Positions 9,358-46,803 of a stretch of DNA of 64,000 bases are shown one piece after another. This DNA comes from Nitrosomonas sp. GTDB lineage: Bacteria > Pseudomonadota > Gammaproteobacteria > Burkholderiales > Nitrosomonadaceae. The position numbers and the translations under genes were made by a program. The notes under the pieces are model-generated. The model was not told where the DNA came from. It saw nothing but the letters and a program-made list of their open reading frames with translations, and made no database searches. The number at the start of each line of letters is the position of its first letter. The first letter of the stretch is position 1. The stretch lies in assembly GCA_021774195.1 (NCBI GenBank), contig JAJFJJ010000095.1, positions 1 to 64,000 of the forward strand, in the 5' to 3' direction.

Positions 9358-10773
9358 CTACGTCCGCCGATAATTATCCTCAAAGCGAACAATATCATCT
9401 TCTCCCAGATAAGAACCCGATTGCACCTCAATAATGTGTAGCGGCACCTTGCCTGGATTTTCCAATCGATGCGTCGTTCCAAGCGGGATATACGTCGATT
9501 GATTTTCCGTCAACAATTCTTCAACGTCATTACGAATGACACGAGCCGTTCCAGAGACAACCACCCAATGTTCCGCACGATGATGATGCATTTGTAACGA
9601 AAGCTTCTCCCCCGGTTTAACCATGATTCGCTTGACCTGAAACCTTTGCCCCATATCGATACCCTCATACCAACCCCAAGGGCGAAACACACGAGTATGG
9701 AATTCATGCTCTCTACGACTATTTTTTTTCAGGAAATCGGTCACTTTTTTTACATCCTGAGCACGGTCTTTTTCAACAACCAACACCGCATCACTGGTTT
9801 CCACAACAAGCAAATCTTTGGCGCCAATCACGGCAACCATACGCGACTCTGCACGAACCAGACTGTCGTTAACATTATCAAGATAAACATCACCGCGCAC
9901 CACATTACCACTATCATCCTTATCGCCGACTTCCCACAACGCCGACCAAGCACCGATATCATCCCAACCAATATCCGTTGGAATTACAGCCGCATTCTCA
10001 GTATGTTCCATCACCGCATAATCAATAGAATCAGCAGGACAAGCAGCGAATGCATCCGAATCTAGGCGACAAAAATCAAGATCATCCGACCCTTCATCCA
10101 GAGCCTGCTCACAGGCATTTAGAATATCCGGACGGAATTTTTTCAGCTCATCAAGGAATTGCTGGCAAGAAAAAAGGAACATACCACTGTTCCAGAAATA
10201 ATCACCGCTAGCAAGAAATTTTTCAGCATTATCAAGATCCGGTTTCTCTACAAATCGATTCACGCGATGCACACCACCCTGATTAAGCACTTCACCAAAC
10301 TGTATGTAACCATAACCGGTTTCTGGTGCATCTGGGACAATACCGAAAGTCGCTAGAGACCCATCTTTAACGGCCTGCAAACCGACATCAATCGCATGAT
10401 GAAAAGCCACCGTATCGCGTATCAAATGATCTGCTGGCAGCAGTAACATCACCGCGTCCGGGTCACGTTTGAGTAACGCAAGCGCAGCGATAGCGGCAGC
10501 TGGTGCAGTATTCCGCCCAACTGGCTCAAGATAAATACCAATCGGCGTCACATCAATTTCACGCATTTGTTCAGCGATTAAAAAACGATGATCATTATTA
10601 CAAACGATTAACGGCTGACCGATCTGCGCATGACCAGCGAGGCGCTGCACGGTATCTTGCACCATAGTACGCTCAGAAGCCAACGCCAGCAGTTGTTTTG
10701 GCAACGCAGTACGAGACATGGGCCATAGACGAGTACCAGATCCACCAGATAGAATAACGGGATATAGAGTCAT
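9358..10773 (-). CDS. manC: Mannose-1-phosphate guanylyltransferase / mannose-6-phosphate isomerase, copy 2
   Basis: 471 residues. All ManC signatures are in their usual form: LSGGSGTRLWPMSR, RFVEKP, and in the isomerase half LSLQMHHHRAEHW and SGTARVIRN. It makes GDP-mannose for the Gmd/Fcl/aminotransferase branch. It is upstream-adjacent to fcl (117 bases apart, same strand), which makes it the operonic copy and the more likely functional one. About 45 bases upstream of the start also resemble the region before copy 1, so the duplication extends slightly beyond the gene. Confidence 0.95.
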   Translation of the reverse strand: MTLYPVILSGGSGTRLWPMSRTALPKQLLALASERTMVQDTVQRLAGHAQIGQPLIVCNNDHRFLIAEQMREIDVTPIGIYLEPVGRNTAPAAAIAALALLKRDPDAVMLLLPADHLIRDTVAFHHAIDVGLQAVKDGSLATFGIVPDAPETGYGYIQFGEVLNQGGVHRVNRFVEKPDLDNAEKFLASGDYFWNSGMFLFSCQQFLDELKKFRPDILNACEQALDEGSDDLDFCRLDSDAFAACPADSIDYAVMEHTENAAVIPTDIGWDDIGAWSALWEVGDKDDSGNVVRGDVYLDNVNDSLVRAESRMVAVIGAKDLLVVETSDAVLVVEKDRAQDVKKVTDFLKKNSRREHEFHTRVFRPWGWYEGIDMGQRFQVKRIMVKPGEKLSLQMHHHRAEHWVVVSGTARVIRNDVEELLTENQSTYIPLGTTHRLENPGKVPLHIIEVQSGSYLGEDDIVRFEDNYRRT

Positions 10774-10889
10774 AGTATCAGACCAAAAAAATTACAATAA
10801 TTTAGATTTAGTTACAATGTCTTACCTGAATCACATCTCTATTTCTCATTAACAAACTAAGACGTGTCATTTTAATAGAGATTTTCGGA

Positions 10890-11849
10890 TCACATCATGG
10901 ACGCTTGATACCAGCGATACGCATCCTCAAGACCTTCACGAAGTTTGATTTTCGCTTGCCAGCCCATGTTCGTCAATCGTGACACATCCATCAATTTACG
11001 CGGTGTACCGTCTGGTTTGCTTGAATCAAACACAATGCTTCCAGAAAAACCGGTTATTTCCGCAATTAATCCGGCAAGCTCGGCTATCGTCACATCCTGC
11101 CCCGTACCAACATTAATATGCGACAACATCGGCTGTGTATTCGCTTCGTAATCCGCCAATGGCAAATCCAATACAAAAAGCGATGCCTCAGCCATATCAT
11201 CTACATGCAAAAATTCACGGTAAGGCTTGCCACTCCCCCAGATCACAACTTCCGGCGCTCCTGTCGCTACAGCCTCGTGAAACCGTCGTATCAAAGCTGG
11301 TACCACATGACTATTTTCCGGATGAAAATTATCGCCCGGCCCATATAAATTAGTCGGCATAACACTACGGTAATCCACACCATACTGCCGGTTATAGCTT
11401 TCACATAGCTTAATACCGGCAATCTTAGCGATTGCATATGGTTCGTTGGTTGGTTCCAGCATTCCTGTTAGAAGGCTATCCTCACTCATTGGCTGCGGGG
11501 CAAGTTTGGGATAAACACATGAACTTCCCAGCAATAACAAACGATTCACCCCTGCCTCCCAGGCCTGATGCACAACATTACATTCCATCATCATGTTCTG
11601 GTAAATGAATTCAGCGGGATACGTGTTATTCGCATGGATTCCACCAACCTTTGCCGCAGCCAGTATCACCACATCAGGACATTCACTTGAAAAGAAATCT
11701 CGTACTTGAGCTTGTTCAATTAGATCTAGTTCAGCGTGCGTGCGGGTAATCAGTTCAATTGCCTCACCACTTTCTTGCCTTGCTTGCAAACGCCGTATAA
11801 TGGCCGACCCAACCATACCCCTATGTCCTGCCACATAAATCTTTGTCAT
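10890..11849 (-). CDS. fcl: GDP-L-fucose synthase
   Basis: 319 residues, normal length for the epimerase/reductase that turns GDP-4-keto-6-deoxymannose into GDP-L-fucose with NADPH. The Rossmann motif is [16 protein letters not shown], the catalytic Tyr-Lys pair is in PYAIAKIAG, and [11 protein letters not shown] supplies the Ser of the triad. Substrate from Gmd (26706-27797). The start overlaps nothing; eight bases separate it from the upstream MNT gene, so the two may be co-transcribed. Confidence 0.95.
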
Positions 11850-12293: not shown

Positions 12294-13241
12294 TTACATT
12301 GAATCAATCATCCTGCTTAAACCATCTTCTATCGTATAAGGCGCCTTAAATCTCATGGACTGAAGATTTTTTGTTTCCACAACTGTGCTTGCACAAAATT
12401 TCTTAATTCGAACACTGCTCAAAGGTAACTTCTTTCCTGATACAAGAGCTAATACGTCAAAAAAATATCCAGCAACCAAGCCTAAAGTATAAGGAATCGT
12501 AATATTACCCTCTGATTTAACGCCTAATTTAGTTTGCAAAAAACCAACTAATTCCTTCGTCGAAAGATCAGGTTTATCCGCATAGTTAATAAGTTGTAAA
12601 GAAACAGGAAGATCAGCACAATCCATTAGAAACTTTGTGATATTCCCAATATAAGCCATAGATTTTTTATTTTTCCCGTTCCCAACCATAAAAAATCTTT
12701 TCTTTCTAATCTGGTCAATTAAGTTAAATACATTACCAATATTATTTTCACCAAAAATTACTGATGGTCTGACAATAATCAATGCCCTATCTTTACCCCT
12801 TTTATACCACTCACAAAAAACCTTTTCAGCTTGCAGCTTACTTTTACCATAATCATTAAACGGAGCAACAATACTATCCTCCTTAGTACTTTTAGCATTC
12901 AATGGATATACTGCAACAGAGCTAATAAATATTATTTTTTTTATATTGTTATGTTCAGTAGCGTAAGTAAGATTTTCTGCCCCCCCCACATTGACATCAT
13001 AATAAAGACTCACAGGTGAAACATCATCTCGATGCTCAGCTGCAAGCATATAAACAATGTCTATTCCATCAAGCGCTTTAACTAAGTCTTCTTTTTTTCT
13101 AACATCACCAATAATTGTTAGCGAAGGATAGGCCTCACTTTTTACTTTATCGTAAATTTGAACTTTATGGCCTGCTTTCAACAATGTGCCAACTAATCTA
13201 GTACCAACAAAGCCACTTCCTCCAACTATCAAACATTTCAT
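12294..13241 (-). CDS. NAD-dependent epimerase/dehydratase (extended SDR)
   Basis: 315 residues. LIVGGSGFVGTRLVGTLL is the N-terminal NAD-binding motif, IIFISSVAVYP supplies Ser, and NDYGKSKLQAEKVF the YxxxK catalytic pair. The C-terminal domain is typical of nucleotide-sugar or lipid-linked sugar reductases and epimerases. The exact substrate cannot be read. Three bases separate it from the glycosyltransferase gene upstream, so they form an operon. It may finish a sugar precursor or reduce an undecaprenyl-linked sugar. Confidence 0.85.
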   Translation of the reverse strand: MKCLIVGGSGFVGTRLVGTLLKAGHKVQIYDKVKSEAYPSLTIIGDVRKKEDLVKALDGIDIVYMLAAEHRDDVSPVSLYYDVNVGGAENLTYATEHNNIKKIIFISSVAVYPLNAKSTKEDSIVAPFNDYGKSKLQAEKVFCEWYKRGKDRALIIVRPSVIFGENNIGNVFNLIDQIRKKRFFMVGNGKNKKSMAYIGNITKFLMDCADLPVSLQLINYADKPDLSTKELVGFLQTKLGVKSEGNITIPYTLGLVAGYFFDVLALVSGKKLPLSSVRIKKFCASTVVETKNLQSMRFKAPYTIEDGLSRMIDSM

Positions 13242-13244: not shown

Positions 13245-14474
13245 TCACACCCTCTCAATCAAGTTTCTATATTTTTCAGAAATCACATTTAGTGTGTATT
13301 TATCGTCAAATGCTTTTCTCGCATTTAGCGACTTACAACGAAGCAAATTTGTATCGGCTGAATACATTAGAATCTTCTCTGCCAACTGTTTACAATCGCC
13401 CGGATATACATTTTCGCCGCAATCATTTTTTATAATTTCACGAGAAGTCTCCGTTTTCTTATCAGCAATACTGATAACCGCCTTTCCAGAAGCCAATACT
13501 CCATAAAGCTTACTAGGCACACACAAGCCTGTTATTTCTTCTTTAAGCGAAATTAAGGCCAAATCACAGGCGGTTAAAGTAAGAGGGAGTTTTTCAAATG
13601 GCTGGAAAGGTTTTAAAGTAATATTTTTAAGTTTATGTTTATCAATCACATGCTGAATATTTGGTAATTGACCTCCTTCACCAATAAATAAAAAATGCAC
13701 TTTTTTATTATCTTTTAATATTTTTGCTGCTCCAAGCATAGTTTCAAAGTCGTGGAATAAGCCCAAATTACCAGAATACTGAACAACAAACTTATCATTT
13801 AACCCCCACTCGATTAATTGAGGATGATTTTCTCTTGGATATGGCTTGATGAAGTTACCATCCGCCCAATTCTCTATCACTTCAATTTTTTCTTGATGAT
13901 GCTTGCTTATTTCAGCGTCAATAACTGCCTTCATACAGGAACCAAGAACAACAATTTTTGAAGCCCTTGCATATGAAAACCGATTTAATTTTTTCCACAA
14001 TTTCTCAATCATCGACCCCTCTTTAATCTTTCCAAGCTTGACTGCCACATCGGGGTAGACATCATGAATAATCAGAACATATTTTGTTCCACGTATCAAA
14101 TTATTGACACATGCAACCCAAAGCAAAAGAGGAGGGTTTGTTACTGTAATAAGGACATCAGCCTGACGTCTGAAAAGAAGATTAAATAATGCTGATAATG
14201 TAAAGCTAGCTGTGTTTATTATTCGACCTATTGTCGTATTTTTATTTAACTTTGTTGACCAAACTCTTTTAATACAAACACCATTATGTTCAACCATTTT
14301 AGGCAGCAATTTTTTTACCAATAAGTAAGCTGGTTGCCCAGCCAACCCATCAACCATGTACTCTGCTTGTTTTAGCTTAAATGCAATCCCTGAGAGCAAA
14401 ACAGATGTTGCCATTTCTTCAGGCCAGAAATAATGCGACAAAAATAGAATTGATTTTTTTTCTTGTTTTTTCAA
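13245..14474 (-). CDS. Glycosyltransferase family 4-like (WbuB-type)
   Basis: 409 residues. SILFLSHYFWPEEMATSVLL opens a GT-B fold N-terminal domain; VLIIHDVYPDVAVKLG, VQYSGNLGLFHDFETML and KLYGVLASGKAVISI are the donor-site blocks seen in WbuB-like transferases. It probably adds a sugar to the lipid-linked repeat unit on the inner membrane face. It is followed directly by the epimerase gene (three-base gap). The coding DNA is visibly more AT-rich than the flanking housekeeping genes. Confidence 0.88.
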   Translation of the reverse strand: MKKQEKKSILFLSHYFWPEEMATSVLLSGIAFKLKQAEYMVDGLAGQPAYLLVKKLLPKMVEHNGVCIKRVWSTKLNKNTTIGRIINTASFTLSALFNLLFRRQADVLITVTNPPLLLWVACVNNLIRGTKYVLIIHDVYPDVAVKLGKIKEGSMIEKLWKKLNRFSYARASKIVVLGSCMKAVIDAEISKHHQEKIEVIENWADGNFIKPYPRENHPQLIEWGLNDKFVVQYSGNLGLFHDFETMLGAAKILKDNKKVHFLFIGEGGQLPNIQHVIDKHKLKNITLKPFQPFEKLPLTLTACDLALISLKEEITGLCVPSKLYGVLASGKAVISIADKKTETSREIIKNDCGENVYPGDCKQLAEKILMYSADTNLLRCKSLNARKAFDDKYTLNVISEKYRNLIERV

Positions 14475-14553: not shown

Positions 14554-15489
14554 CTACCATTCATCATTACTATAGAAACAAGATGAAATTGGTTCAACGG
14601 CAGCCCTAATATAATTTATATCTTCTGATGAAAGCTTTCTTTTCCATGCATAAGCATTAGCTTTACTATCCCTTTTATGTGTGTGAACACTCCGCGCATC
14701 CCGAGGATTAGATGAGCTAGTCGTTTTCAAAAGTACTTCTCTTGTTTTCTCACCATATTCAATTTGCATATGCTGAAAAACGATTGAGAAATTATGAAAT
14801 GGATCTATTGACAAGTCTTCATGTTTGACAAATAACCATTCATTGTGATGTTTCTCTTTCAATTTGTTTATTTGAGAATGTGTGATTTTCCATAACAGAA
14901 TCGCTTGATCTAATAAAGATTTTTCTTTTATTGAATACTCATATATTTCATCATGAAAGTTAACAAGTTCATTTTTCATAAGTAAATCTTGCATTAGAAA
15001 ATGAGAAAATGGATGCCCCCATCCAACTCTAAGGATGCTATTTACAAAAGCTGCAGGATGCCTAATTAACACCAAAACATCCGAATTAAATGTTGAATAA
15101 AACCATTCACTAGAAAAAAGAGCCAATGGGTCTTTGATTATTGTTCTGTATTCATCACGCCTCATAATCTGCGCGGTCATATTTAATTTCGCGTATTTAA
15201 AAAAACGTCCTAGTGATTTTATTGAGTTAACCATTTGCAACGCTTTCGAATAGTTAAACGAAAAAGAAATCATTTGCTCCAACAACTTTTTACAATTCAA
15301 ATCACCGGTATCGCTGATACAATAATACCAATAAGGAAAAAGACCAAGATTAAATGGATTATTAATATTAAATGGCTCTTGCAGGTAGGATGTTCTAGGT
15401 GCAGATGCTACTACTTTCCCGACCCAAGTTGTACCCGATCGATGTGCCCCAACAATAAGTATTGGTTTATTTAAGCTCACCTTATTCAA
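14554..15489 (-). CDS. Sulfotransferase (PAPS-dependent), first of three
   Basis: About 311 residues. The 5'-phosphosulfate-binding loop is ILIVGAHRSGTTWVGKV, and the 3'-phosphate site is VLVLIRHPAAFVNSILRVGW. Such enzymes move sulfate from PAPS to a hydroxyl or amine of a carbohydrate. No ATG opens the frame: TTG at 15489 or GTG at 15480 are the candidates, and neither has a clear Shine-Dalgarno. It precedes the glycosyltransferase/epimerase pair on the same strand. Polysaccharide sulfation is inferred from context. Confidence 0.85.
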   Translation of the reverse strand: MNKVSLNKPILIVGAHRSGTTWVGKVVASAPRTSYLQEPFNINNPFNLGLFPYWYYCISDTGDLNCKKLLEQMISFSFNYSKALQMVNSIKSLGRFFKYAKLNMTAQIMRRDEYRTIIKDPLALFSSEWFYSTFNSDVLVLIRHPAAFVNSILRVGWGHPFSHFLMQDLLMKNELVNFHDEIYEYSIKEKSLLDQAILLWKITHSQINKLKEKHHNEWLFVKHEDLSIDPFHNFSIVFQHMQIEYGEKTREVLLKTTSSSNPRDARSVHTHKRDSKANAYAWKRKLSSEDINYIRAAVEPISSCFYSNDEW

Positions 15490-16563
15490 TTCAATTTATT
15501 GAGTTCTAAAAATCGCCAGAAAGTAAAGTATCACAGCATCCTGGTGCAGTCTGGCGCAACTAATAATATCAAGTTCACTCACAAACAACATTGACATAGC
15601 AGTTACCCTTCCAGGACAACCATGATTTTACAATGCATTTCTGAATTCATTGTAGATTAATACACTTTATGTATTTATCCATTGCCCATCCGACTCTTGC
15701 GTAAATAAAGACCTATATCATCAACACCATATTTGCCTGACCCAATTACCGAAAGTCTTACAGTCTGCACTTAAATTTTGTACCAGCTCAGTTAGAAGAC
15801 AAACCAAACTTAATGCCAAGACTACCATTACATCTTTGGTTTCTTGATTGTACTTTTTCATCTTCCTAGTTCTTTTATTTTTAAATCAATAGGATTCCGT
15901 TAAAAAACATTGTCATCACATAGTACGCAACTAACATAAGCATAGGAGTTTAACAACATACAATACAAGTCAAGATATGCAGAAATATTGTTTTATGCAA
16001 AGATCCATCATGAACAACATATTCATAAATGGTTGAGAACTAACGCTACATCTCAATTAATAATCGTAACTACTCACTCCACATTTCCTAAGCCTTGCTT
16101 GCCAAAGTAATTCAGACTGTATTCGACGGGCTTAGTAAGACTTTAACTTTATATATCTTCTTCTTTACGATAAAATTTTGCTAACTCTTATAAACCTATC
16201 CTTTCATTCTAATAAAAATTTGGGCTAAGTAATGTGAGAAAACTCACAGACAAAGTATGAAAAATCATCCTGAATGAATGGACTTTAGACGAAGAAAGCC
16301 GACACTTGGCTTACTTAATCGCTCAGATCGGAGCAACAATATATCAGCCACGAATATTACGGTAACCTGTCTATTATGAAAATGGAGCAGAGCATAAGCC
16401 AAAAAGGAAATTGCTAGGATAACTCCCCGACAGAATGAATCGCCCCGGGTTTACAGGAGACACTATTTCTTGAGAGGATAGTGTTATGGGCACCTCTAAA
16501 AATTCAAGTTGCAAAAATGGTTCATCCGGTAAACGCGTACTTATACCCTCAACCGACTGGAGC
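15490..16563. other. Non-coding gap left of the IS3 element
   Basis: About 1.07 kb, strongly AT-rich, without a supported gene. At 16488 the bases GGGCACCTCTAAAAATTCA match the end of family C, but the rest of that element is missing. Decayed sequence is likely. Confidence 0.5.
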
Positions 16564-16630
16564 TGAAGTGGTACCGCAAAATTGGACAAGTTGTTAAGCT
16601 CTGATATGTGATAAATAGAGAGAGACAATC

Positions 16631-16912
16631 ATGAGCAAGAAACGCACACAATATTCACAAGGATTCAAAGCCAAAATAGCGTTGGCGGCAATACGTGGAG
16701 AAGAGACGGTACCGCAATTAGCCGCTCGTTATCATATCCATCCCACGCAGATTAATAGCTGGAAACGTCAATTAATTGAAAAAGCCGGTGATCTGTTTGG
16801 CAAGAATAATGACGCCAATAATAAAAGCGGTCACAGTGCCGACGACTTACATCGCGTGATTGGGCAATTGACGGTAGAACGTGATTTTTTAGCCAGAAAG
16901 CTCGATCATTAA
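16631..16912 (+). CDS. IS3-family transposase OrfA
   Basis: 93 residues. The helix-turn-helix (YSQGFKAKIALAAIRGEE, then LAARYHIHPTQINSWKRQ) and a leucine-rich tail (LTVERDFLARKL) are typical of IS3 OrfA. A canonical slippery heptamer T-TTT-TTA at 16885-16891 lies in the zero frame near its end. A -1 slip there leads straight into the orfB frame, reading SQKARSLSVAKRKTMIG, so the active transposase is an OrfAB fusion. Confidence 0.92.
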   Translation: MSKKRTQYSQGFKAKIALAAIRGEETVPQLAARYHIHPTQINSWKRQLIEKAGDLFGKNNDANNKSGHSADDLHRVIGQLTVERDFLARKLDH

Positions 16913-16932
16913 GTGTTGCCAAGCGCAAAACA

Positions 16933-17760
16933 ATGATTGGGCGCCACGGAAAACTAAGCCAATCCCGTCAATGCCATTTACTGGGTGTTGCACGCTCGAC
17001 GTATTATTATCAGCCACACCCCACAGATGAGGGTGAATTGATTTTGCTGCGTCAAATGGATGAGCAGTATTTGAAAACACCGCAGTATGGTTCACGCAGT
17101 TATGCTACGTGGTTCAGGCGTCAGGGAATTGTGATAGGTCGTAAGAAAGCAACTTCAATGATGAAGATGCTGGGCATTATTAGCACAGCACCAAAGCCCA
17201 AAACCAGTATTGTGGCCAAGCAACACAAGAGGTATCCCTATCTGCTCAAAGGCAAGGCCATCAATCGTCCCAACCAAGTTTGGGCGACTGATATCACCTA
17301 CGTGCCGATGGCAAAAGGTTTTGGTTATCTTGTGGCCATCAAGGACTGGTATTCGCGTAAAGTACTGAGTTGGCGCTTATCTAACACACTGGACGCTGAT
17401 TTCTGTGTCCAGGCTTTGGAGGCTGCCATCCAGGATCATGGCTGTCCACAAATCATGAATAGTGATCAAGGTGTGCAGTTTACCAGTGAGGCATTTACAT
17501 CAACACTAAAAGCCAATGGTATACAGATCAGCATGGATGGCAAGGGCTGCTACTATGACAATATTTTCGTTGAACGACTATGGCGTACAGTCAAGTATGA
17601 ACACCTATACACTCAGGAGTTCAGCAATCTAAAGGAGGTAAGGAAAAGTTTAAATGTTTGGTTCAACTGGTACAATCAGGAGCAATTTCATCAAAAGCTT
17701 GATGATCTAACACCAGATGAAGTTTACTATCAGAAACATGCAATTCCTCAGGCTGCCTGA
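16933..17760 (+). CDS. IS3-family transposase OrfB (DDE integrase domain)
   Basis: 275 residues from the first ATG, although the functional protein is the frameshift fusion with OrfA. The DDE triad is visible: Asp in VWATDITYVPMA, Asp in IMNSDQGVQFTS, and Glu in DNIFVERLWRTVKYE. The C-terminal block VWFNWYNQEQFHQKLDDLTP is also standard. No stop or frameshift interrupts it, so the element should still be active and could act on related remnants. Confidence 0.92.
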   Translation: MIGRHGKLSQSRQCHLLGVARSTYYYQPHPTDEGELILLRQMDEQYLKTPQYGSRSYATWFRRQGIVIGRKKATSMMKMLGIISTAPKPKTSIVAKQHKRYPYLLKGKAINRPNQVWATDITYVPMAKGFGYLVAIKDWYSRKVLSWRLSNTLDADFCVQALEAAIQDHGCPQIMNSDQGVQFTSEAFTSTLKANGIQISMDGKGCYYDNIFVERLWRTVKYEHLYTQEFSNLKEVRKSLNVWFNWYNQEQFHQKLDDLTPDEVYYQKHAIPQAA

Positions 17761-17836
17761 GCTTGATTAACCAACCATGTTAGAGCTTAATTTATCTTCA
17801 GGTTGTCTCGTTAAAGGGAACCACTTCAGTATATTT

Positions 17837-17874
17837 TCTCTTAACTGGGGTGTCCGGGTCTATTAGACCATGTC
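17837..17874. repeat. End remnant of a second IS3-type element
   Basis: The bases CTCTTAACTGGGGTGTCCGG and the following GTCTATTAGACCATGTC recur, with two changes, at 37186-37221, where they form the outer end of an IS3-type OrfA remnant. Only the ~38-base end survives here, directly beside the complete IS. From 17875 to 18235 I see no gene or known repeat; this stretch must hold the promoter of the next gene. Confidence 0.7.
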
Positions 17875-18235
17875 AATATTGGCTTTAACTGCGAACCAAA
17901 TGATGATCCTGGCGACTTAAAAAACAACCAGGCAAGTCTTAAAAATAGAATTTAAAGCACACCCTAGGAAAATTACGCCTTAAAATTGGTAAAATCTCAG
18001 GAATGACCATATAAAATTATAAAAATGCTGATATTTGAGCGTATTTGGATTTAAATTTAGCTTAATTCGATTTGCCGCCACTTACGTGCTTGGTCTTAAC
18101 GGAGTTTTGCAAGAGGCTCGGGTGTTAAAAGTTTGAAATATTTACTTGTGATTCTGCATAAATGCCATCTAGTTAAGATTATTTATGACAATCATTGTGA
18201 TAACAAATTGTTTAAAATTAGCGTGATTATAAATA

Positions 18236-19072
18236 ATGCGAAAAATTAAAAAATACTTGCACTTCATTAAAGGGCAGCTTCTTACATACTGGCCAAATGA
18301 AACCAGACGTTTGAATAAAGGCAATGAGTTTGTGCTGGTACTTGCTAGTGCTCATAAAGTGGGGAGTACCTGGTCTTATAAAATGATCTCTGATTTAAAA
18401 ATTTTCCGTCAATGGATTGTTCCGCATACATTTCGGGCGAATATCAGAAATAAAGGGCTATTAGATCTACATAAAAATAATGTTGATAGCTATTTGAAAA
18501 AATTTAAGCACTATCGGCTTTTTAAATCTCACTCTTTACCACCATCCTGGCATTCAACATGTAATGTGAAATTCCTTACGGTTTTTAGAGATCCTAGAGA
18601 TGTCGTTATATCGAATATATTTTACCTGGCTAATCTTGATTCAAGGTTAGGTGGTTGGCCAGACTTGATAGATATGCCTCTTAAAGATCGAATTGCTGCA
18701 TATCTAAATAAAGGTATATATGACCTTCAATTAATGGAAAAGTGGTTTTTATATAATGACTGTCACAAGATATTTTATGAAGAAATGCTTGAAGATCCAG
18801 ACGGCGTTATGAAGAAAGTATTTGAGGATATGAATTTAATTGTATCGTCGGATGAACGTTGCAGAGTGGTGAGTAAGAATGATTTTAAAAAACTGTCTAA
18901 AGGAAGGAAGACAGGCCAAGCTGATACCAAATCCTTTTTTAGAAAGGGCGTAGCAGGTGACTGGAAAAATTACTTTGGTGAAGAAGAAAAGGATTTATTT
19001 AAAACTCAATGCAATGGACGATGGAATAAATTGTTGCTTGATTTGGGTTATGAAAAAGATGAAAACTGGTAA
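18236..19072 (+). CDS. Sulfotransferase (PAPS-dependent), second of three
   Basis: 278 residues. The PAPS 5' loop is LASAHKVGSTWSYKMI, the 3' site is FLTVFRDPRDVVISNIFY, and the C-terminal RKGVAGDWKNYF matches the RKG-x-x-GDWK block of sulfotransferase family 1. It is unlike its neighbours in being on the plus strand. It sits between the IS3 element and an IS3-type transposase remnant, so it looks like cargo brought in or trapped between insertion sequences. Substrate is unknown; a sugar of the local polysaccharide is the natural guess. Confidence 0.88.
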   Translation: MRKIKKYLHFIKGQLLTYWPNETRRLNKGNEFVLVLASAHKVGSTWSYKMISDLKIFRQWIVPHTFRANIRNKGLLDLHKNNVDSYLKKFKHYRLFKSHSLPPSWHSTCNVKFLTVFRDPRDVVISNIFYLANLDSRLGGWPDLIDMPLKDRIAAYLNKGIYDLQLMEKWFLYNDCHKIFYEEMLEDPDGVMKKVFEDMNLIVSSDERCRVVSKNDFKKLSKGRKTGQADTKSFFRKGVAGDWKNYFGEEEKDLFKTQCNGRWNKLLLDLGYEKDENW

Positions 19073-19171
19073 ATTAATCAAATTTTTCAAAATATGGCTA
19101 TAGGAAAAATAAACCACCTTTTCCATGAGTTTTGAATGAACTGAAAGTAGGCTCGGTTGACAATGTAATGA

Positions 19172-19282
19172 TCAAGCAAAACCGGGCACTTTTTTAGCAG
19201 CCTTTCTATAAAATACATGTTCAAATTCTAACAGCGATTGGTAGCCTAATTTTGAGTGCGTACGTTTTTCATTGTAGGAAAC
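19172..19282 (-). pseudogene. IS3-type transposase C-terminal remnant
   Basis: Minus-strand reading gives VSYNEKRTHSKLGYQSLLEF and ends at TGA after KKVPGFA. The YN-x-x-R-x-HS-x-LGY-x-S block is the conserved end of IS3 OrfB. Nothing of the DDE domain remains. It flanks the plus-strand sulfotransferase on the side opposite the complete IS. Confidence 0.78.
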
Positions 19283-19284
19283 AA

Positions 19285-19328
19285 CCAAATAGTCGCCTCT
19301 GAATAGTTATTCAGGGGCGACTATTTGG
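19285..19328. repeat. 44-bp near-perfect palindrome at the 3' end of wzx
   Basis: CCAAATAGTCGCCTCTGAATA faces its complement across two bases, with a single mismatch (T/C). The wzx stop codon and its last residues (NSRP) lie inside the right arm. Half of the sequence (GTTATTCAGGGG, then a close match to GACTATT) recurs at 37659-37677 beside the stop of the SNF2 gene. It may be a terminator or the joined ends of a lost insertion sequence. Confidence 0.75.
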
Positions 19329-20627
19329 CCATGGGAAGATCGAAATTTTAAGTTCTCTCCATACTAATAACATTGCAATTAAATTCTGCGTGGAAAGTAT
19401 AAGTGCTGCTGCAACTGCAGCACCTAAAATTCCATACTCAGGAACTAACCATGAATTTAATAATAACCCAAGAATTACACAAAACAATAAATTATTACGC
19501 ATGAGTCGCTCATTCCCTGTCATCATCAATAAGTATCCTACAGAGCCCGTTGCCACATTAATAAATTGACCAATTGCCAGAATAATCAGAACTGTAGATC
19601 CTTGCTTAAATTGGTCGCCAAATATAGACAGTATCCATTCTGGAAAAAATATAAATAACAATAATACAGGGGATGCTAACAGTACCATGAGCTTAGCTGA
19701 GTTGCGTGCCACCGATCCTAACGCTTCCATTTCCCCTCGCTGGTATAGTGCCGAGAATTTAGGTGCTGCAATACTATTGACAGCTATCAATACAAAACTG
19801 GTCAACATCGCAGTCCTGCTAGCTGCATTATATACCCCAACATTTTCACTACTTTCCCACACTCCTAGAAACAATATGGGCGACAAGGTTATAAACATAT
19901 TCATAACCACAATACCAAAAAGAGGCATACTGGTAGTTAACAATTCACCACTACTAAACTCAGGGGAATTGTTCTTAAACAACAATGTTGCTTTTTTCCA
20001 GAACCGCCACCCAAACAGAAAAGTCATAGTAACAGCAAATATATAACCCCAAACTGATGCATCAATACCATAATTAGGCACAAACAGTATAGCTACCACA
20101 CAGGTGAGCAATGGCACACAAATACTTAGAATAGAAACTGAGGCAGCAATTCTCTTTAGTCCCTGCAAAGCTTTGGCATGTAAAGTGAGAAGTGCCAAGG
20201 GTACAACACCGATGGTCATGATGCTCAAAGGGCGAATCAATTCTGGTTTAGCAAATATCACATCACTAATCCACGGTGACAGCAGATAGATAAATATGGA
20301 TAGAATTGATGAAACCACTAACGAAAAAAGCATCGCTTTTTGATAAATTCCCAATACTTTATTGGGCTGTTCAGATGCAATATTGGCAGCTATAAACCTA
20401 ACCAATGCATTTTCCATTCCGACTCTTCCTATTGCAGCGACTATCGTCACAATGGTAAGTGTCAAAAAGAAAATTCCGGAACCTTCAGCACCGAGAAGCC
20501 TTGCCAATACCACATTCAAGGCAAAAGCAAGCCCAGCTGCAAGCACCTTGAGCACAAAAGCGATTGATGCGCCATGCAGCAACTCCTGCATGTGGTCATC
20601 AAACCCAATCAGTATTTTTTTAATCAC
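19311..20627 (-). CDS. Wzx-type polysaccharide flippase
   Basis: 438 residues with about a dozen hydrophobic segments spread along the protein (for example VLKVLAAGLAFALNVVLA, FFLTLTIVTIVAAIG, FGIVVMNMFITLSPILFLG). This is the MATE/MOP-superfamily layout of Wzx proteins, which flip undecaprenyl-linked repeat units across the inner membrane. The C-terminus (PWPNSRP) is encoded within a palindrome, so the native end may have been replaced. It lies in the same direction as the Wzy-like and glycosyltransferase genes. Confidence 0.88.
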   Translation of the reverse strand: MIKKILIGFDDHMQELLHGASIAFVLKVLAAGLAFALNVVLARLLGAEGSGIFFLTLTIVTIVAAIGRVGMENALVRFIAANIASEQPNKVLGIYQKAMLFSLVVSSILSIFIYLLSPWISDVIFAKPELIRPLSIMTIGVVPLALLTLHAKALQGLKRIAASVSILSICVPLLTCVVAILFVPNYGIDASVWGYIFAVTMTFLFGWRFWKKATLLFKNNSPEFSSGELLTTSMPLFGIVVMNMFITLSPILFLGVWESSENVGVYNAASRTAMLTSFVLIAVNSIAAPKFSALYQRGEMEALGSVARNSAKLMVLLASPVLLLFIFFPEWILSIFGDQFKQGSTVLIILAIGQFINVATGSVGYLLMMTGNERLMRNNLLFCVILGLLLNSWLVPEYGILGAAVAAALILSTQNLIAMLLVWRELKISIFPWPNSRP

Positions 20628-20864
20628 TTTTATACATCAAAAAAAAACCCTATTAAACCGCTTGATACAATATGCCCATCTGTAGCCCACCCCCATAAAT
20701 CGACTAATTCGCAATTCAGGATTACCCGGGTATTCATACATAATTAATATGTCGACATTTATTTAGGTTTTACAAAGTTTTTTAGGATTAACATCGGCAC
20801 ACCCTCAAGCAACGATCTTATTTCAAAATGCTAAGCAGTTTTCTCAGCTTCTTTGATACAATTA

Positions 20865-21704
20865 CTATCTGAATTTCAATTTTATCATTTTATATATCTC
20901 CTCATCTTCTCCTGCACCAGCACAGTCAAATGTGCTACAAGTATGAATTCCTCTTTTAACATTTATTTTCCACTTTTCCTCTTTTTTTACGGTAAGATCT
21001 CCTGCAACCCGTAGTTGCAAACACAGGTCTATATCCACCTGTTTAAGTGCCAAAAAGTTCATTATGGAACCAAGTACCGCATGAGGGTCTCTACATAATT
21101 CTTCGTATGTTACTAAATGGTGGTTGGTTGGATCATGCGTACAATAATATTGGCTTCTTTTAATATCCCTACGCCACTGTTTATTTACAATTCTCTTTGG
21201 ACGAGAAAAATAATCCAGTTTATATTTTAAGGATGCTTTTTCCCATGAATGAAAAACAGCAGGAAACCTCCTTATTAAATGAACAAACTTTGCTTGATGA
21301 GATATTTTTTTTATAACTGGGATTCTTCTTAGATGGACAGTTGATTTTTCTGACCAGGTGTTTTTGTTTGCGTGAAGTGCTGCTTTATCCATTTTAGCCA
21401 TCCAATAATGATCCATATCACTACTATATGAAATGGAAGATAATTCGTCATAACTATATTGTATTTGGTTTTCATCGAAAAAACGCCGGATAATTTTACG
21501 GTCAAATCTGGGCCTTCGAACAAAAAAAACATCGGATAACGGAACGGACAAGCCCAGCTTATCAAATGGACAAATATATCGATGAAAAAAATAGTGTGAT
21601 TCAGTAAAGCCCATTACGTCAGGATGTGATGCAATTACAGATTGCAGAAGCGAAGTTCCAGACCTTGGAAATCCTACTACAAAAACTTGATTAATCTTTT
21701 TCAT
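20865..21704 (-). CDS. Sulfotransferase (PAPS-dependent), third of three
   Basis: 279 residues from the ATG at 21704, which places the PAPS loop QVFVVGFPRSGTSLLQSVI right at the N-terminus, as in the family. The longer frame upstream lies inside the glycosyltransferase gene. The 3'-phosphate site is KFVHLIRRFPAVFHSWEKAS. The start overlaps the upstream glycosyltransferase by 14 bases, so the pair is translationally coupled. That coupling is the best evidence here that sulfation acts on the same glycan as the glycosyltransferase. Confidence 0.85.
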   Translation of the reverse strand: MKKINQVFVVGFPRSGTSLLQSVIASHPDVMGFTESHYFFHRYICPFDKLGLSVPLSDVFFVRRPRFDRKIIRRFFDENQIQYSYDELSSISYSSDMDHYWMAKMDKAALHANKNTWSEKSTVHLRRIPVIKKISHQAKFVHLIRRFPAVFHSWEKASLKYKLDYFSRPKRIVNKQWRRDIKRSQYYCTHDPTNHHLVTYEELCRDPHAVLGSIMNFLALKQVDIDLCLQLRVAGDLTVKKEEKWKINVKRGIHTCSTFDCAGAGEDEEIYKMIKLKFR

Positions 21705-22833
21705 TACAAAGCGTAGCAATAAGCTCATCACCATACTTCGAAAACTCCAGCTTTTCATTGTGTAGCCGTAGTGCTTCAGATTGGTACATCTCATAATTAC
21801 CAGATATTTTTGCTAATGCAATATGAATATTCCTAATATTATCAATTGCCACACCACATCTAAATTCGTCAAAGATTTCTTTAAATGTAAACTGACCTGT
21901 TGTTATAGTCGGTTTGCCATATTTCATAAACATATTAAATTTTCCAGAGGAGAAGCCCATATATTCGATATTATCTCCCCCTGTAGGCAAATCATAATTC
22001 ACGTAGATAGCAAGCCCCACATACGATGATGCGTATAAATACTTAATTTCCTTATAAGGCACAGGTCTTGACGAGAACACTATTTTTTCATCTATCTCAT
22101 CAAGTACAACATTCATTTTTCTGCCAGCATGAATAACAATTACATATTCCTCCGATAGTTGTCTTGCAACAAAATTGAGATCTACAATCATCCTTTTTGC
22201 AAAACCAATCGACCCAGGATGCAAAAGTATTTTTTTCTCTCTACTAATCCCTAGCTTATCATGCAGATAAAAACTTTCACTGATTTTTGCTTTTCCAGAC
22301 TCAGCATTTGGTAAAAGTAATATCTTATCAAGAAATAAATTATTTGCTGACTTTAATAACCCCCTCCTCCATTTGTCCTGTGTGATCACCAAACTGACTC
22401 TCCTACTTATAAAAGCTTCTAATTTCTTATATAACTTCCAGGCCGGGTTCTTCAATTCGGAGCCAATTAGTACCTCAAGCGATAGATAAATTATTTTCGT
22501 CCGAGTGAAAAAAGAAATAAAGTAAACTTCAAATAAACTAAGTGGTTCAATAGCAATAACATATGAATATTTCTTTCCTTTCATTTTATTGATTAGAAAA
22601 AAAATTGTTGTCGACAGGGAGGATAATAATCGTAAAATACTTTTCCCTGCATAAGTATCCATTGGAAACAAGCTGATATTGTCCCCCTTTACCACATTCT
22701 CATTATAACCAGGGTATTTTGCAAAAAATATATCCACCTTGTATCCTGCACTTGTTAAAGTCCGAATTAACTCATGTTCAATCGGATGAATGCAAAAAAA
22801 CGAACTATGTTTAATAACCCCAATTATTTTCAT
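21691..22833 (-). CDS. Glycosyltransferase (GT-B fold)
   Basis: About 380 residues from the ATG at 22833 (MKIIGVIKHSSFFCIHPIEH); an AAGGAG site lies upstream of it, and the frame before it has no support. The N-terminal HPIEHELIRTLTSAGYKVDI and the central ILLHPGSIGFAKRMIVDLN with EYMGFSSGKFNMFMKYGKP are the acceptor- and donor-domain blocks of a group 1-like transferase. The donor sugar cannot be read. It is coupled to the downstream sulfotransferase. Confidence 0.8.
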   Translation of the reverse strand: MKIIGVIKHSSFFCIHPIEHELIRTLTSAGYKVDIFFAKYPGYNENVVKGDNISLFPMDTYAGKSILRLLSSLSTTIFFLINKMKGKKYSYVIAIEPLSLFEVYFISFFTRTKIIYLSLEVLIGSELKNPAWKLYKKLEAFISRRVSLVITQDKWRRGLLKSANNLFLDKILLLPNAESGKAKISESFYLHDKLGISREKKILLHPGSIGFAKRMIVDLNFVARQLSEEYVIVIHAGRKMNVVLDEIDEKIVFSSRPVPYKEIKYLYASSYVGLAIYVNYDLPTGGDNIEYMGFSSGKFNMFMKYGKPTITTGQFTFKEIFDEFRCGVAIDNIRNIHIALAKISGNYEMYQSEALRLHNEKLEFSKYGDELIATLCNEKD

Positions 22834-23012
22834 GTTTTCATCACTCCTTGTCTCAATAATAGTCTTCGATATCATTCCTGCCCCTTCCGGATTCTTATAC
22901 CTTCGTTACATTCTCGTTGTTTAATACGATAGCGCTTTATGGGGGGAATCATTCCATGACCCTTCAATTTTCCAGTTTTCGCTCCAAAACATAGAAAACA
23001 TATCCCGAGAAA

Positions 23013-24185
23013 TTAAAGATAATCTTTTTTTCGATTTTTATTGATCTTGTTATTTTTAGATTCAAACCAGAAAAATGATGCTATGGCACATGCAATAACC
23101 AACCTGTCAAAACCAGATAAAGCCAGAAACAATCCCCCATACAAGAAATAAAAGCAGAGAAATACCATAAGAATTAATTCAGGCTGTGAACGCAGAAATC
23201 TATGTTTCCAACATTTGTACAACAAAACTAATACAAAATAGGCTAGCAACAGATAAAACAAAGCTCCCAATTTCCCAGCCTCGTAAGAGGCAACCAAAAA
23301 ATACCCATGAATTAGTGTTGAACCTTCCTTTTCCTTTTCAAAAGCTTCACTGCCAACATATGGCACAATGTGGTTTTTCGCAAACGCACTATGTCCATTA
23401 CCAATCATTTTTGCTTCAATAAAATCATTAAATACAGTCATCGTAATGGCTGCACGGAGAGTATTGGACATATCTCGCCTATTCCCAGATGTTTCATCTG
23501 TATATTGATAAATAGCAATAAATGAATAAACCACAAAAGGGATAATTGCTAACATTAATATTTTGTTTATGTTTAGTTTACTCGATGAATGGGACATATA
23601 TGAATAGCAAAACACTATTAACATGACTAATGCCAATCCACGAAAATCAAAAAAAACATTAATCACCACCAAAACAAATATCAATAGATGAGTAAGTCGA
23701 ACAGGAAAAAGTAACGCGCTCAGAGCAACTATGGCAAAAGATACCCCTTCTCCAATCCCTAGCCGCCAAAATTTATACGCACTTAAAAAATCTTCATAAA
23801 CCACACTAAGAAGAATGGTATTACACACTCCATATCCAATAAAAACAAATGGAAGGAAAGATGGGTACTCAGAATGTTTTGCGAGAAAGATTGCTAACAG
23901 AAGTAATGAAAGTAATTTCAACACATCATAAATTATCTGCCTCAGCAACTCATTAGCAGCGATATCACTTACAATCTGAGCAAATATATAAAGCAAGAAA
24001 ACCACTAACAATAGCGAAAACTTCTTCGGTACATAGATAACGCTATTCCCTTTTCTAATAGAGTCATAAAAAAATGATAGTGGGATGAATATTAATGCGA
24101 AAAGCTCCGTAAGCGACATCCCACCAAACGCCTGTATAGACAACCCACACCCCAGTGAGAAAAAATAAATATTTTTTAACCACAT
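23013..24185 (-). CDS. Wzy-like O-antigen/capsule polymerase
   Basis: 390 residues with about ten to twelve membrane segments (for example LLLVVFLLYIFAQIVSDIAA, LLIFVLVVINVFFDF, GALFYLLLAYFVLVLLYKC) and a larger polar loop in the second half with RRDMSNTLRAA and GNGHSAF. The last loop with charged residues is the usual Wzy layout, but sequence conservation in this family is poor, so the name rests on topology and location. It would polymerise repeat units in the periplasm. Confidence 0.75.
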   Translation of the reverse strand: MWLKNIYFFSLGCGLSIQAFGGMSLTELFALIFIPLSFFYDSIRKGNSVIYVPKKFSLLLVVFLLYIFAQIVSDIAANELLRQIIYDVLKLLSLLLLAIFLAKHSEYPSFLPFVFIGYGVCNTILLSVVYEDFLSAYKFWRLGIGEGVSFAIVALSALLFPVRLTHLLIFVLVVINVFFDFRGLALVMLIVFCYSYMSHSSSKLNINKILMLAIIPFVVYSFIAIYQYTDETSGNRRDMSNTLRAAITMTVFNDFIEAKMIGNGHSAFAKNHIVPYVGSEAFEKEKEGSTLIHGYFLVASYEAGKLGALFYLLLAYFVLVLLYKCWKHRFLRSQPELILMVFLCFYFLYGGLFLALSGFDRLVIACAIASFFWFESKNNKINKNRKKDYL

Positions 24186-24240: not shown

Positions 24241-25371
24241 CTATTTAGCACTTATCAACACTTGCTTTACCGCATTCACTACTTTCTTGACATCACTTTC
24301 TTTAAGAGCGAGTCCGCTGGGAAGATAGAGCCCTCTTTTATACAATCTTTCTGATACTGGATGACTATCACCGATAAAAAGACCTTCTCTGTTGAATATT
24401 GGCTGCTGATGCATTGGATAAAAAAAAGGGCGAGTCCCAACCCCTTTCTCCCCCAAACGCGACATAAAACCTCGTGCATCAATCGGAAAAGAATCTTTCA
24501 GAACAATTCCAAATACCCAGAATAAGTTATCTGCATAGTCAGTTCTTTCCAAAGGTAACTCTAATTCATCAATTTCTTTTAGCGCTTCCAGATACCAAAG
24601 GCCAATACTCCGTTTGAGTTTTAAGTGAGTTGGCAACTGTTCAAGTTGCGCAAGACCAACAGCCGCTTGTAGATTTGTCATTCGGTAATTCCATCCTAAT
24701 TCGTAATGGACGAATCTCTCTGAGTTAACAAAACATAGATTCCTCAGGCTACTGCAACGCTCAGCAAGAATTGGGTCATTTACTGACACCATCCCCCCCT
24801 CTCCAGTAGTAATATGCTTATTCGGATAAAAACTAAAGACACTTACATCCCCAAATCCTCCACAAGGCTTTTCTTCATACTCTAATCCAATCGCTTGAGC
24901 AGCATCCTCAATGACGCTGATATTATATTTCTTAGCTAAAGCCATTAATGGATTCATATCAACAGGAAGTCCGTATATGTGAACAGCCATAATTGCTTTA
25001 GTTTGCTCTGTGATAAGAGACTCTATTTCCCAAACATTCATATTCCATGTATCGGGTTCACAGTCTACTAGTATTGGAGTTGCACCTGCTCGATATATAG
25101 CAGCAGCACATGAGATAATTGTAAAAGTAGGCATAATCACTTCATCACCAGCCCCAATCTTCAAGGCTGCTATCGCCACATCCAATGCTGCTGATCCATT
25201 GCATACAGCTACACTACTTTTACGACCAACGACTTCTGAAAAGTAATTCTCAAATTTGGAGACAAATGGCCCTTCTGATGAGATCCAACCTGTATCTATA
25301 CATTCTTCAAGATATTTTTTTTCATTTCCTGCCAGCAACGGTTCATTGACTGGTATAAATTCTTTGGTCAT
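24241..25371 (-). CDS. DegT/DnrJ/EryC1 aminotransferase, probably GDP-perosamine synthase
   Basis: 376 residues. FIPVNEPLLAGNEKKYLEEC and DTGWISSEGPFVSKFE open a sugar aminotransferase of the PLP-dependent DegT family. VIEDAAQAIGLEYEEKPCGG holds the cofactor Asp, SFYPNKHITTGEGGMV the Schiff-base Lys, and NYRMTNLQAAVGLAQLE the conserved block after it. The sequence style is that of RfbE/Per, which makes GDP-perosamine from GDP-4-keto-6-deoxymannose, the product of the nearby Gmd. Other sugar aminotransferases are possible. It directly follows the cupin gene (TAA then ATG without a gap). Confidence 0.85.
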   Translation of the reverse strand: MTKEFIPVNEPLLAGNEKKYLEECIDTGWISSEGPFVSKFENYFSEVVGRKSSVAVCNGSAALDVAIAALKIGAGDEVIMPTFTIISCAAAIYRAGATPILVDCEPDTWNMNVWEIESLITEQTKAIMAVHIYGLPVDMNPLMALAKKYNISVIEDAAQAIGLEYEEKPCGGFGDVSVFSFYPNKHITTGEGGMVSVNDPILAERCSSLRNLCFVNSERFVHYELGWNYRMTNLQAAVGLAQLEQLPTHLKLKRSIGLWYLEALKEIDELELPLERTDYADNLFWVFGIVLKDSFPIDARGFMSRLGEKGVGTRPFFYPMHQQPIFNREGLFIGDSHPVSERLYKRGLYLPSGLALKESDVKKVVNAVKQVLISAK

Positions 25372-25803
25372 TTAGCTTTCATCCCCTAAGTTATCTATTC
25401 CAGAGAACCTAGTCTTATCATTTTCTCCTGCATACGGCCCCTGCTTAACCTCGATCATTTCCACATTATCTAACACTGAAAAACCGTGACCACCACCGGA
25501 TAACAGAATCGTATCACCTGCACAAAGAACCCTGCTATCCAAATAGACTTTATCATCATCATAAAAATCTACTTTCAAACGTCCAGATCGAATAAATAAT
25601 ACTTCATGAGTATAGAGCACCTCCCTAACCACTAGGTTATGGATATGCGGTTCAATCACCTTGCCCTTGGGATGCTTCATGTATGCCACTTGTTGAGAAA
25701 GATGATTTTCTGTAAAAAAATGGATTCCATCTTTCTGAAATGAAGCTCTTATTATAATCGCGAACAACTTGCCATTATGTTTGACTTCTTCAGTATCATT
25801 CAT
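25372..25803 (-). CDS. Small cupin protein of the polysaccharide locus
   Basis: 143 residues. KVIEPHIHNLVVREVLYTHE is a cupin motif with two histidines and a Glu, followed by the second motif around GDTILLSGGGHGFSVLDN. Similar small cupins sit beside sugar aminotransferases and are assumed to be sugar isomerases or binding proteins, but the function is not established. Its stop abuts the start of the aminotransferase gene, so the two are co-translated. Confidence 0.75.
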   Translation of the reverse strand: MNDTEEVKHNGKLFAIIIRASFQKDGIHFFTENHLSQQVAYMKHPKGKVIEPHIHNLVVREVLYTHEVLFIRSGRLKVDFYDDDKVYLDSRVLCAGDTILLSGGGHGFSVLDNVEMIEVKQGPYAGENDKTRFSGIDNLGDES

Positions 25804-26705: not shown

Positions 26706-27797
26706 CTATCCCTTGTAATCATGTACACTGTATCCTTGTTGCTTGACTAGCCTATACTTCTCAGCCGATTTCAAGTCTTCTCGCATCATCTCTGCAACTA
26801 ACTCTTCAAAACTAATCTCAGGCGTCCAGCCCAATTTCTCCTTAGCCTTGCTTGGATCACCCAGCAAAGTTTCCACCTCTGCCGGACGAAAATAACGTGG
26901 ATCTACTCGAACAATCACATCACCGTTCTGATCAGTACCCGTTTCATTCAGGCCTTCACCATGCCATGTGATTTCTATACCCACTTCTTTCGCTGCAATA
27001 TTTACAAAATCACGCACGGAGTATTGCACACCAGTCGCGATGACAAAGTCTTCCGGCTCATTTTGCTGCAACATCATCCATTGCATCCGTATGTAATCTT
27101 TAGCATGCCCCCAGTCACGCTTGGCATTCATGTTTCCTAAATACAAGCAATCTTGCAGTCCCAGCTTTATACGCGCTAATGCACGTGTGATTTTCCGGGT
27201 AACAAAGGTTTCGCCACGATTGGGAGATTCATGATTAAATAAAATGCCATTACAGGCATAGATGCCGTAGGACTCACGATAATTCACGGTTATCCAATAA
27301 GCATATAATTTCGCTGCTGCATAGGGTGAACGCGGATAAAATGGTGTTGTTTCAGATTGCGGAATTTCCTGCACTTTGCCGTACAGTTCAGAAGTTGATG
27401 CTTGATAAAAGCGCGTTTTCTTTTCCATACCAAGGATACGAATGGCCTCAAGCATGCGTAGTGTGCCAATGGCATCTGAATCAGCTGTATATTCCGGTTC
27501 TTCAAACGACACTGCCACATGTGATTGAGCTGCCAGATTATAAATCTCATCGGGCTGCACCTGCTGGATAATGCGAATCAAACTGGATGAATCCGTCATG
27601 TCGCCGTGATGCAAAACAAAGCGTAAATCTTTTTCGTGGGGGTCTTGGTAGAGATGATCGATACGGTCGGTATTGAATAGAGACGTGCGGCGTTTGATAC
27701 CGTGCACTTCATAACCCTTTTCCAGAAGAAATTCGGCCAAATAAGCGCCATCCTGACCTGTTACGCCAGTAATCAGCGCTTTTTTATTCTCGGACAT
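26706..27797 (-). CDS. gmd: GDP-mannose 4,6-dehydratase
   Basis: 363 residues, normal length. [19 protein letters not shown] is the NADP-binding motif, [12 protein letters not shown] supplies the catalytic Thr/Ser-Glu pair and [13 protein letters not shown] the Tyr-x-x-x-Lys. It makes GDP-4-keto-6-deoxymannose from ManC's GDP-mannose, feeding Fcl (fucose) and the aminotransferase (perosamine). It is the last polysaccharide gene before the accessory island and is more conserved and less AT-rich than the transferases. Confidence 0.96.
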
Positions 27798-28529: not shown

Positions 28530-28539
28530 TTTCCCTTAA

Positions 28540-46514: not shown

Positions 46515-46803
46515 GATTCTAAACAACACTCCCGGCAACAACCATTGAAGAAGAAACACAAGTTTTTGACAACTTACGCACGAAACGAACTCAAAGTGCC
46601 TTTCCAAAACAACTCAAACTGACAAGTACAAAAACAATAATAGCAAAGATAACGTGAAATTGATTAAATCTCTGTGATAAAAATCACATACAAACATTAT
46701 TTTTTAGACTAATCGGTCTCAGGTTGATAGCTAATATAGCGTGAGTAGTGCTATTGAGACGGCGGGGAATGGTTTACATCAAAAAAAAGAATTGAAAATA
46801 TAA

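Follow-up and report, generated by a model that had tools for sequence, protein, structure and literature searches.

Three predicted sulfotransferase genes lie within a polysaccharide locus of Nitrosomonas sp. (GenBank assembly GCA_021774195.1), which raises the question of whether this bacterium makes a sulfated polymer. We addressed it using positions 1 to 64,000 of contig JAJFJJ010000095.1 (the window, to which coordinates given without a locus label refer). A preliminary description of this DNA had proposed a sulfated polymer of perosamine and fucose. Our analysis indicates that the cell very probably makes a sulfated polysaccharide coat by a Wzx/Wzy-dependent route. Judging from the gene content, polysaccharide sulfation is the best reading of the locus and the capacity for GDP-fucose is confirmed, while GDP-perosamine is probable.

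The three genes, here called ST1 (14554..15489, minus strand), ST2 (18236..19072, plus strand) and ST3 (20865..21704, minus strand), are all unbroken at the coordinates described previously, and each retains both motifs that bind the sulfate donor 3'-phosphoadenosine-5'-phosphosulfate (PAPS). The 5'-phosphosulfate-binding loop (R/K-x-G-T/S-T-like) lies near the N-terminus of each protein (GAHRSGTT at residue 14 of ST1, SAHKVGST at 38 of ST2, and RSGTS at 14 of ST3), and the 3'-phosphate-binding Arg...Ser motif follows at R143/S151 in ST1 (RHPAAFVNS at 143), R118/S126 in ST2 (RDPRDVVIS at 118), and R145/S153 in ST3 (RRFPAVFHS at 145). Pfam matches exceed the curated cut-offs in every case: ST1 to both Sulfotransfer_1 (E 3.2e-7) and Sulfotransfer_3 (4.8e-7), ST2 to Sulfotransfer_1 (PF00685, 6.3e-20), and ST3 to Sulfotransfer_3 (1.4e-22). 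By family and motif, the three proteins are members of the PAPS-dependent sulfotransferase superfamily with predicted transfer activity. ST2 is of the SULT type, with the additional motifs KSH at 97 and KGVAGDW at 237 (the KGxxGDW motif) and cytosolic SULT1C as its best match in the PDB (1.8e-10), while ST3 shows weak similarity there to the sulfotransferase domains of polyketide synthases (PKS) and to tyrosylprotein sulfotransferases. None of the three has a strong predicted membrane span. They are mutually 23-24% identical, in keeping with the diversity noted in the preliminary description, and this value rules out a recent duplication of one sulfotransferase. The reported 14-base coupling of a sulfotransferase to a glycosyltransferase was also borne out, with the ATG of ST3 at 21704 and the stop of the glycosyltransferase gene at 21691; the longest open reading frame (ORF) for ST3 would begin upstream, at 21794.

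ST1 is the weakest of the three in single-sequence comparison, but it is secured by its family, which is one usual in polysaccharide loci. Exact ST1 peptide patterns alone retrieved zero loci from the genome contigs, and a two-sequence alignment with one homolog retrieved 73. Homologs 23-37% identical to ST1 come from Mariprofundaceae (contig G152:C100, locus L172), Alphaproteobacteria, Bacteroidetes, a cyanobacterium, and Verrucomicrobia, but chiefly from Anaerolineae/Chloroflexi. Residues G14, R17, G19, T21, R143, and S151 of ST1 are invariant across 41 homologs, and chance matches to the motifs are ruled out by this invariance together with the family cut-offs. An AlphaFold model of ST1 had a pLDDT (predicted local distance difference test) of 66 when built from 5 sequences and of 90.2 when redone with 41. 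This second model matches human tyrosylprotein sulfotransferase (TPST1) with a Z score of 17.9 over 217 residues at a root-mean-square deviation of 2.9, followed by PKS sulfotransferase domains at Z 16.4. The predicted structure of ST1, the one protein covered by this comparison, has the sulfotransferase fold. The likeness consists of the fold and the PAPS motifs; the identity over aligned residues is 16-18%, and the acceptors of these relatives are a protein tyrosine or a polyketide.

To see where such genes usually occur, we labelled the neighbourhoods of the ST1 homologs with profiles grown from the window proteins and from those of a second polysaccharide locus of this genome on contig C142 (discussed below). 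Among 72 loci of other phyla, 66 contain a polymer-synthesis gene, 52 have a glycosyltransferase as the direct neighbour of the ST1 homolog, and 42 have a further sulfotransferase; these counts are descriptive because they have no matched control loci, and a GT2 or GT4 label falls on about 11% of the 1117 ORFs in the loci. On a plasmid of Alloyangia pacifica, the ST1 homolog immediately follows the flippase of an exopolysaccharide (EPS) locus, and Mariprofundaceae loci combine Wzx with several sulfotransferases. In a locus of this iron-oxidiser family (L093, JAUZRG010000189.1), an ST1-like gene stands beside an ST2-like gene, with more sulfotransferase-like and glycosyltransferase genes, all within 8.6 kb. 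A representative Anaerolineae operon has the order GT39-type, GT2, ..., DUF6056, ST1, GT2, Wzz, Wzy_C, sulfotransferase. We observed a conserved GT2/ST1-like/GT2/Wzz/Wzy_C/second-sulfotransferase operon at 3237-14583 of L131 and in many similar Chloroflexi loci (L115-L174), and from its gene content this is apparently an undescribed system for a sulfated glycan. The ST1 family also offers a marker for locating sulfated-glycan loci in uncultured bacteria. These neighbourhoods also bear on whether the enzymes instead make a sulfated small molecule, such as a signal or a secondary metabolite. PKS domains are among the proteins related by fold to ST3 and ST1, and ST2 is SULT-like, but the sole biosynthetic genes beside the three sulfotransferases are those of a sugar polymer and ST1 homologs mostly occur with glycosyltransferase, Wzz, and Wzy genes, so that we regard a small-molecule product as very improbable.

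The locus proved to be larger than described previously, as genes for export and initiation lie upstream at 44946-51649, all on the minus strand. These encode a Wzb-like low-molecular-weight tyrosine phosphatase (51209..51649; NF007520 4.5e-33, below the equivalog cut-off), the outer-membrane polysaccharide export protein Wza (49920..51125; PF02563 and SLBB), the tyrosine autokinase and polysaccharide co-polymerase Wzc (47628..49898; PF23607, PF13807, and PF02706), and a WecA-type initiating phosphoglycosyl transferase (44946..46607; PF00953 4.8e-35). Further along the minus strand, towards lower coordinates, come a ~17-kb island, Gmd, a cupin, a DegT aminotransferase, a Wzy candidate, a probable glycosyltransferase, ST3, Wzx, ST2 (on the plus strand), an IS3 element, ST1, a WcaI-like glycosyltransferase, a short-chain dehydrogenase/reductase (SDR), Fcl, and ManC. 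Flippase, co-polymerase, outer-membrane exporter, and initiating transferase, all recognised by family models, therefore sit with the sulfotransferase genes, and Wzy is assigned by topology only; in gene content, the window holds a near-complete Wzx/Wzy-dependent polysaccharide system of the Wza-Wzb-Wzc type. WecA-type initiation and Wzx/Wzy are common to O-antigen synthesis as well, the pair of WcaI-like glycosyltransferase and SDR resembles O-antigen genes, and rhizobial and mycobacterial sulfotransferases act on lipo-oligosaccharides and glycolipids (PMC8205485). The sulfate acceptor could for these reasons be the O-antigen or core of lipopolysaccharide, or a glycolipid. We consider this unlikely, since Wza and Wzc orthologs in a gene order common to relatives point to export of a capsule or EPS, although the product may be one shared with lipopolysaccharide.

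Which sugars would such a polymer contain? Gmd, the GDP-mannose 4,6-dehydratase (26706..27797, minus strand; TIGR01472 602 bits, cut-off 415), and Fcl, the GDP-L-fucose synthase (10890..11849, minus strand; NF047922 517 bits, cut-off 500), both exceed their NCBIfam equivalog cut-offs, which confirms the earlier assignment of GDP-fucose capacity. ManC (mannose-1-phosphate guanylyltransferase/mannose-6-phosphate isomerase; 9358..10773, minus strand; TIGR01479 717 bits, cut-off 373) would supply GDP-mannose. We observed that ManC is duplicated (3076-4534 and 9358-10816), the two copies lying ~5 kb apart in the same orientation with 89% DNA identity. The DegT aminotransferase (24241..25371, minus strand; Pfam 1.3e-109) resembles the GDP-perosamine synthase PerA: its nearest solved relatives in the PDB are the perosamine synthases 3bn1/3dr4 (7e-86 versus 2e-71 for the next kind), and it keeps the pyridoxal phosphate lysine (SFYPNKHITTGEGG). 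GDP-perosamine, previously called probable, stays so, and the identity of the sugars, with GDP-fucose capacity and probable GDP-perosamine, is moderately supported by these genes. The remaining genes on the minus strand are a WbuC-like cupin (25372..25803; TIGR04366 1.3e-6, below cut-off), the Wzy-type polymerase candidate (23013..24185; 10 predicted membrane spans), the probable GT4-like glycosyltransferase (21691..22875; assigned from context and by the preliminary description), the Wzx-type flippase (19311..20627; Pfam Polysacc_synt, with homologs in the Mariprofundaceae family), the GT4 glycosyltransferase (13245..14474; PF00534, NCBIfam WcaI subfamily below cut-off), and the SDR-family sugar epimerase/reductase (12294..13241; Pfam Epimerase 7e-28).

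A sulfated product would also require PAPS, and the search for its synthesis genes proposed in the preliminary description was positive, with CysD, CysN, and CysC all above NCBIfam cut-offs (CysC 305 bits). Contig C94 carries the genes for CysD and CysN together with those for CysH and CysI, and CysC lies on contig C30 beside a gene similar to UTP-glucose-1-phosphate uridylyltransferase. CysH passed the model for reductases of adenosine 5'-phosphosulfate (APS) (249 bits, cut-off 235), failed that for PAPS reductases (149, cut-off 254), and carries the CCxxRK/CxxC motifs. With a CysH of the APS-reductase type, sulfur assimilation can run from APS without PAPS, and this rules out a PAPS supply serving assimilation only. 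From established pathway knowledge, we infer that PAPS is left for the sulfotransferases rather than drained by assimilation. CysC lies within 7 kb of sulfotransferase genes in three congeners (G015, G017, and G026), but with the caution that APS kinase also occurs in congeners for which the PF00685 search gave no sulfotransferase.

The sequence directly shows the identities of the genes, their motifs, the make-up of the locus, its foreign base composition, and the PAPS genes, and from these we propose the following route. The WecA-type enzyme would load the first sugar onto undecaprenyl phosphate, and the glycosyltransferases would assemble a repeat unit from GDP-fucose, a GDP-perosamine-like sugar, and others. 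In the cytoplasm, ST1-3 would then move sulfate from PAPS, made by CysDN plus CysC, to the repeat unit while it is still lipid-linked, their activity and its timing being putative. Wzx would flip the repeat unit, Wzy would polymerise it, and Wzc/Wza would export the sulfated exopolymer or capsule.

How did the sulfotransferases come to be in this locus? Gmd is directly adjoined by orthologs of Wzc and WecA in the congeners G091, G071, and G065, and by the WecA ortholog in G015. Past Gmd, the first three carry a different set of flippase and glycosyltransferases and then Fcl, which marks Gmd and Fcl as the borders of a serotype-like segment of variable content. Two of these segments include a WecG-type glycosyltransferase (the family model was run on the G091 copy), and no sulfotransferase was recognised in the Gmd-Fcl segment of any of the three. 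G+C content is 45-47% in Fcl, ManC, and Gmd and 43% in the downstream flank, against 33-35% in the SDR (33.9%), WcaI-like glycosyltransferase, ST1, ST2, ST3, probable glycosyltransferase, and Wzy candidate, with Wzx and the PerA-like DegT gene at 40%. A DNA search over 85 genus genomes matched Gmd, Fcl, ManC, and the insertion sequence (IS), and the interior genes had no full match among the matches listed. Protein searches of 84 congeners gave no ortholog of ST1, ST2, or ST3, the best match being 33% identical over ~110 residues. The low interior G+C relative to the borders and the lack of sulfotransferase orthologs therefore point to an imported cassette, and as read from composition and gene order, the serotype-like interior is a horizontally acquired replacement bearing three sulfotransferases. 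The homologs of the window Wzx in two Mariprofundaceae-family loci (L094 and L095; 2e-101 and 6e-90) adjoin ST1 relatives. Nothing was found when ST3 was searched in viral contigs and plasmids, or the Wzy candidate and its neighbouring glycosyltransferase in plasmids.

The locus also bears signs of rearrangement. The IS3-family element (16564..17833, plus strand; transposase ORFs 16631-16912 and 16933-17760) has copies with 91% DNA identity in congener G044 and ISVpa4-like relatives on plasmids, and is separated from ST1 by ~1.1 kb without a long ORF. A search of this gap (15490-16630) for a broken gene, made against the collected ORFs, gave nothing beyond weak transposase-like matches. The ~17-kb island (27798-44945) splits a polysaccharide operon that stays contiguous in relatives; it lies between WecA and Gmd and contains PIN, Fic, HepT/nucleotidyltransferase, SNF2-helicase, and AAA-DUF4143 genes. 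In its Fic gene, the catalytic part (32019-32816) lies in a separate ORF that overlaps the one for the N-terminal domain (31727-32089).

Several of these observations weigh against a sulfated coat. Expression of the locus is not assured, because an IS lies in its interior and the island runs through it. In a sequence-only phmmer search of the PDB, ST1 matched no solved structure below E 0.9; the Wzy candidate and the glycosyltransferase at 21691 match no Pfam or NCBIfam family; and the dominant ST1 clade, in the Anaerolineae, has no characterised product either. Sulfate in the polymer, sulfotransferase activity, cytoplasmic timing, sugar identities, and acceptor positions are all deduced from genes alone. 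ST2, which is oriented against the rest of the locus and lies between the IS3 element and Wzx, could be a passenger. With the gap beside ST1, the island, and the IS, this suggests that one or two of the sulfotransferases, ST2 first, may be passengers or decaying imports, leaving a polymer that is unsulfated or sulfated once. Such an outcome is possible but rather unlikely, as none of the three ORFs is truncated or lacks a motif, and the adjacency of ST1- and ST2-like genes recurs in the Mariprofundaceae locus L093.

Is such a coat unusual for the genus? The view that sulfotransferases in such loci are not standard for this group was wrong, because a Sulfotransfer_3 (PF13469) match occurs in 63 of 85 genus genomes (above the cut-off in 58) and a locus with EpsI, Wzy, sulfotransferases, and Wzx recurs on contig C142 and in at least seven congeners. 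The genome analysed here has ten sulfotransferase genes, and by PF13469 count it exceeds all 84 congeners (the next has 7). On C142 we observed a second polysaccharide locus, conserved in the genus, with five sulfotransferases and an exosortase-associated, B-type EpsI (L023 552-16675, L022 19034-19954), along with Wzx, Wzy, glycosyltransferases, and genes similar to UDP-glucose dehydrogenase and polysaccharide deacetylase. Varying subsets of its sulfotransferases have orthologs (E ~1e-135 to 1e-162) with the same Wzx/Wzy/EpsI in G006, G013, G020, G056, G058, G083, and G093. These seven were chosen for having sulfotransferase clusters and so show recurrence, the frequency coming from the PF13469 count over 85 genomes. 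Separately, a repeat-rich, adhesin-like ORF of >1250 residues has a further sulfotransferase gene directly upstream (L025 9369-14009, contig G000:C5). The C142-type locus shares with the window locus multiple sulfotransferases plus Wzx, Wzy, and glycosyltransferases, but differs in its conservation across the genus and in its set of sulfotransferases, Wzx, and Wzy. The sulfotransferase trait thus seems common, not exceptional, across the genus, relatives mostly carrying it in a different polymer locus; by gene content and ortholog searches, what is special here is that the window holds a second, genome-specific, imported sulfotransferase locus. We tentatively suggest, as a view we hold with less confidence than the sulfated coat itself, that sulfated EPS may be a genus-level trait (through the EpsI-B locus, which is conserved and has up to five sulfotransferases) overlaid by sulfated serotypes that are specific to strains and swapped horizontally, the window locus being one; that the ST1 family may mark a sulfated-glycan operon that is widespread in Anaerolineae and as yet uncharacterised; and that bacterial sulfated polysaccharides may be far commoner than published work suggests in groups other than cyanobacteria and marine gammaproteobacteria.

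In 2021, cyanobacteria were described as the only bacteria with sulfated polysaccharides (PMC8205485); the range has since been broadened by structures from Vibrio and Cobetia. We found no paper on Nitrosomonas, sulfotransferases, and exopolysaccharide in literature whose coverage omits most subscription journals. Single sulfotransferase genes in polysaccharide clusters are on record for Gallionella (PMC3770913) and Nitrosococcus oceani (PMC7285500), and Alcian blue at pH 1 stains sulfate esters in the EPS of granular sludge in which ammonium oxidisers dominate (PMC6291783). If the window organism is such a nitrifier, the window and C142 loci would be a direct candidate genetic source of this sulfate-staining EPS, which has had no assigned genes so far.

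The closest known parallel is synechan, a sulfated Wzx/Wzy EPS of Synechocystis PCC 6803 with two sulfotransferases in its xss cluster, proven by genetics and composition (PMC8205485). Like the window locus, xss has more than one PAPS sulfotransferase beside a flippase, a polymerase, and glycosyltransferases. ST3 is a weak match to XssE (~25% identity); ST1 and ST2 gave no pairwise phmmer match to XssA or XssE, with identities of about 20-25% that fall short of orthology, and a tblastn search of plasmids gave no pSYSM match. By E-values for a 14-sequence set, C142 sulfotransferases a and e resemble XssA, and b, c, and d resemble XssE. The window locus differs from xss in its three sulfotransferases, GDP-fucose/perosamine-type sugars, own Wza/Wzc/Wzb, and imported cassette, and it is known from genes alone. 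Among proteobacteria, the sulfated capsule of Vibrio sp. KMM 8419 involves sulfotransferases plus cysNDC, the former strain-variable and horizontally acquired (PMC11641403). It thus shares with our genome both the PAPS-synthesis genes and the horizontal acquisition of sulfotransferases, but Vibrio uses an ABC-transporter pathway for a Rha/Glc polymer, whereas the window locus is of the Wzx/Wzy type with its cys genes on other contigs.

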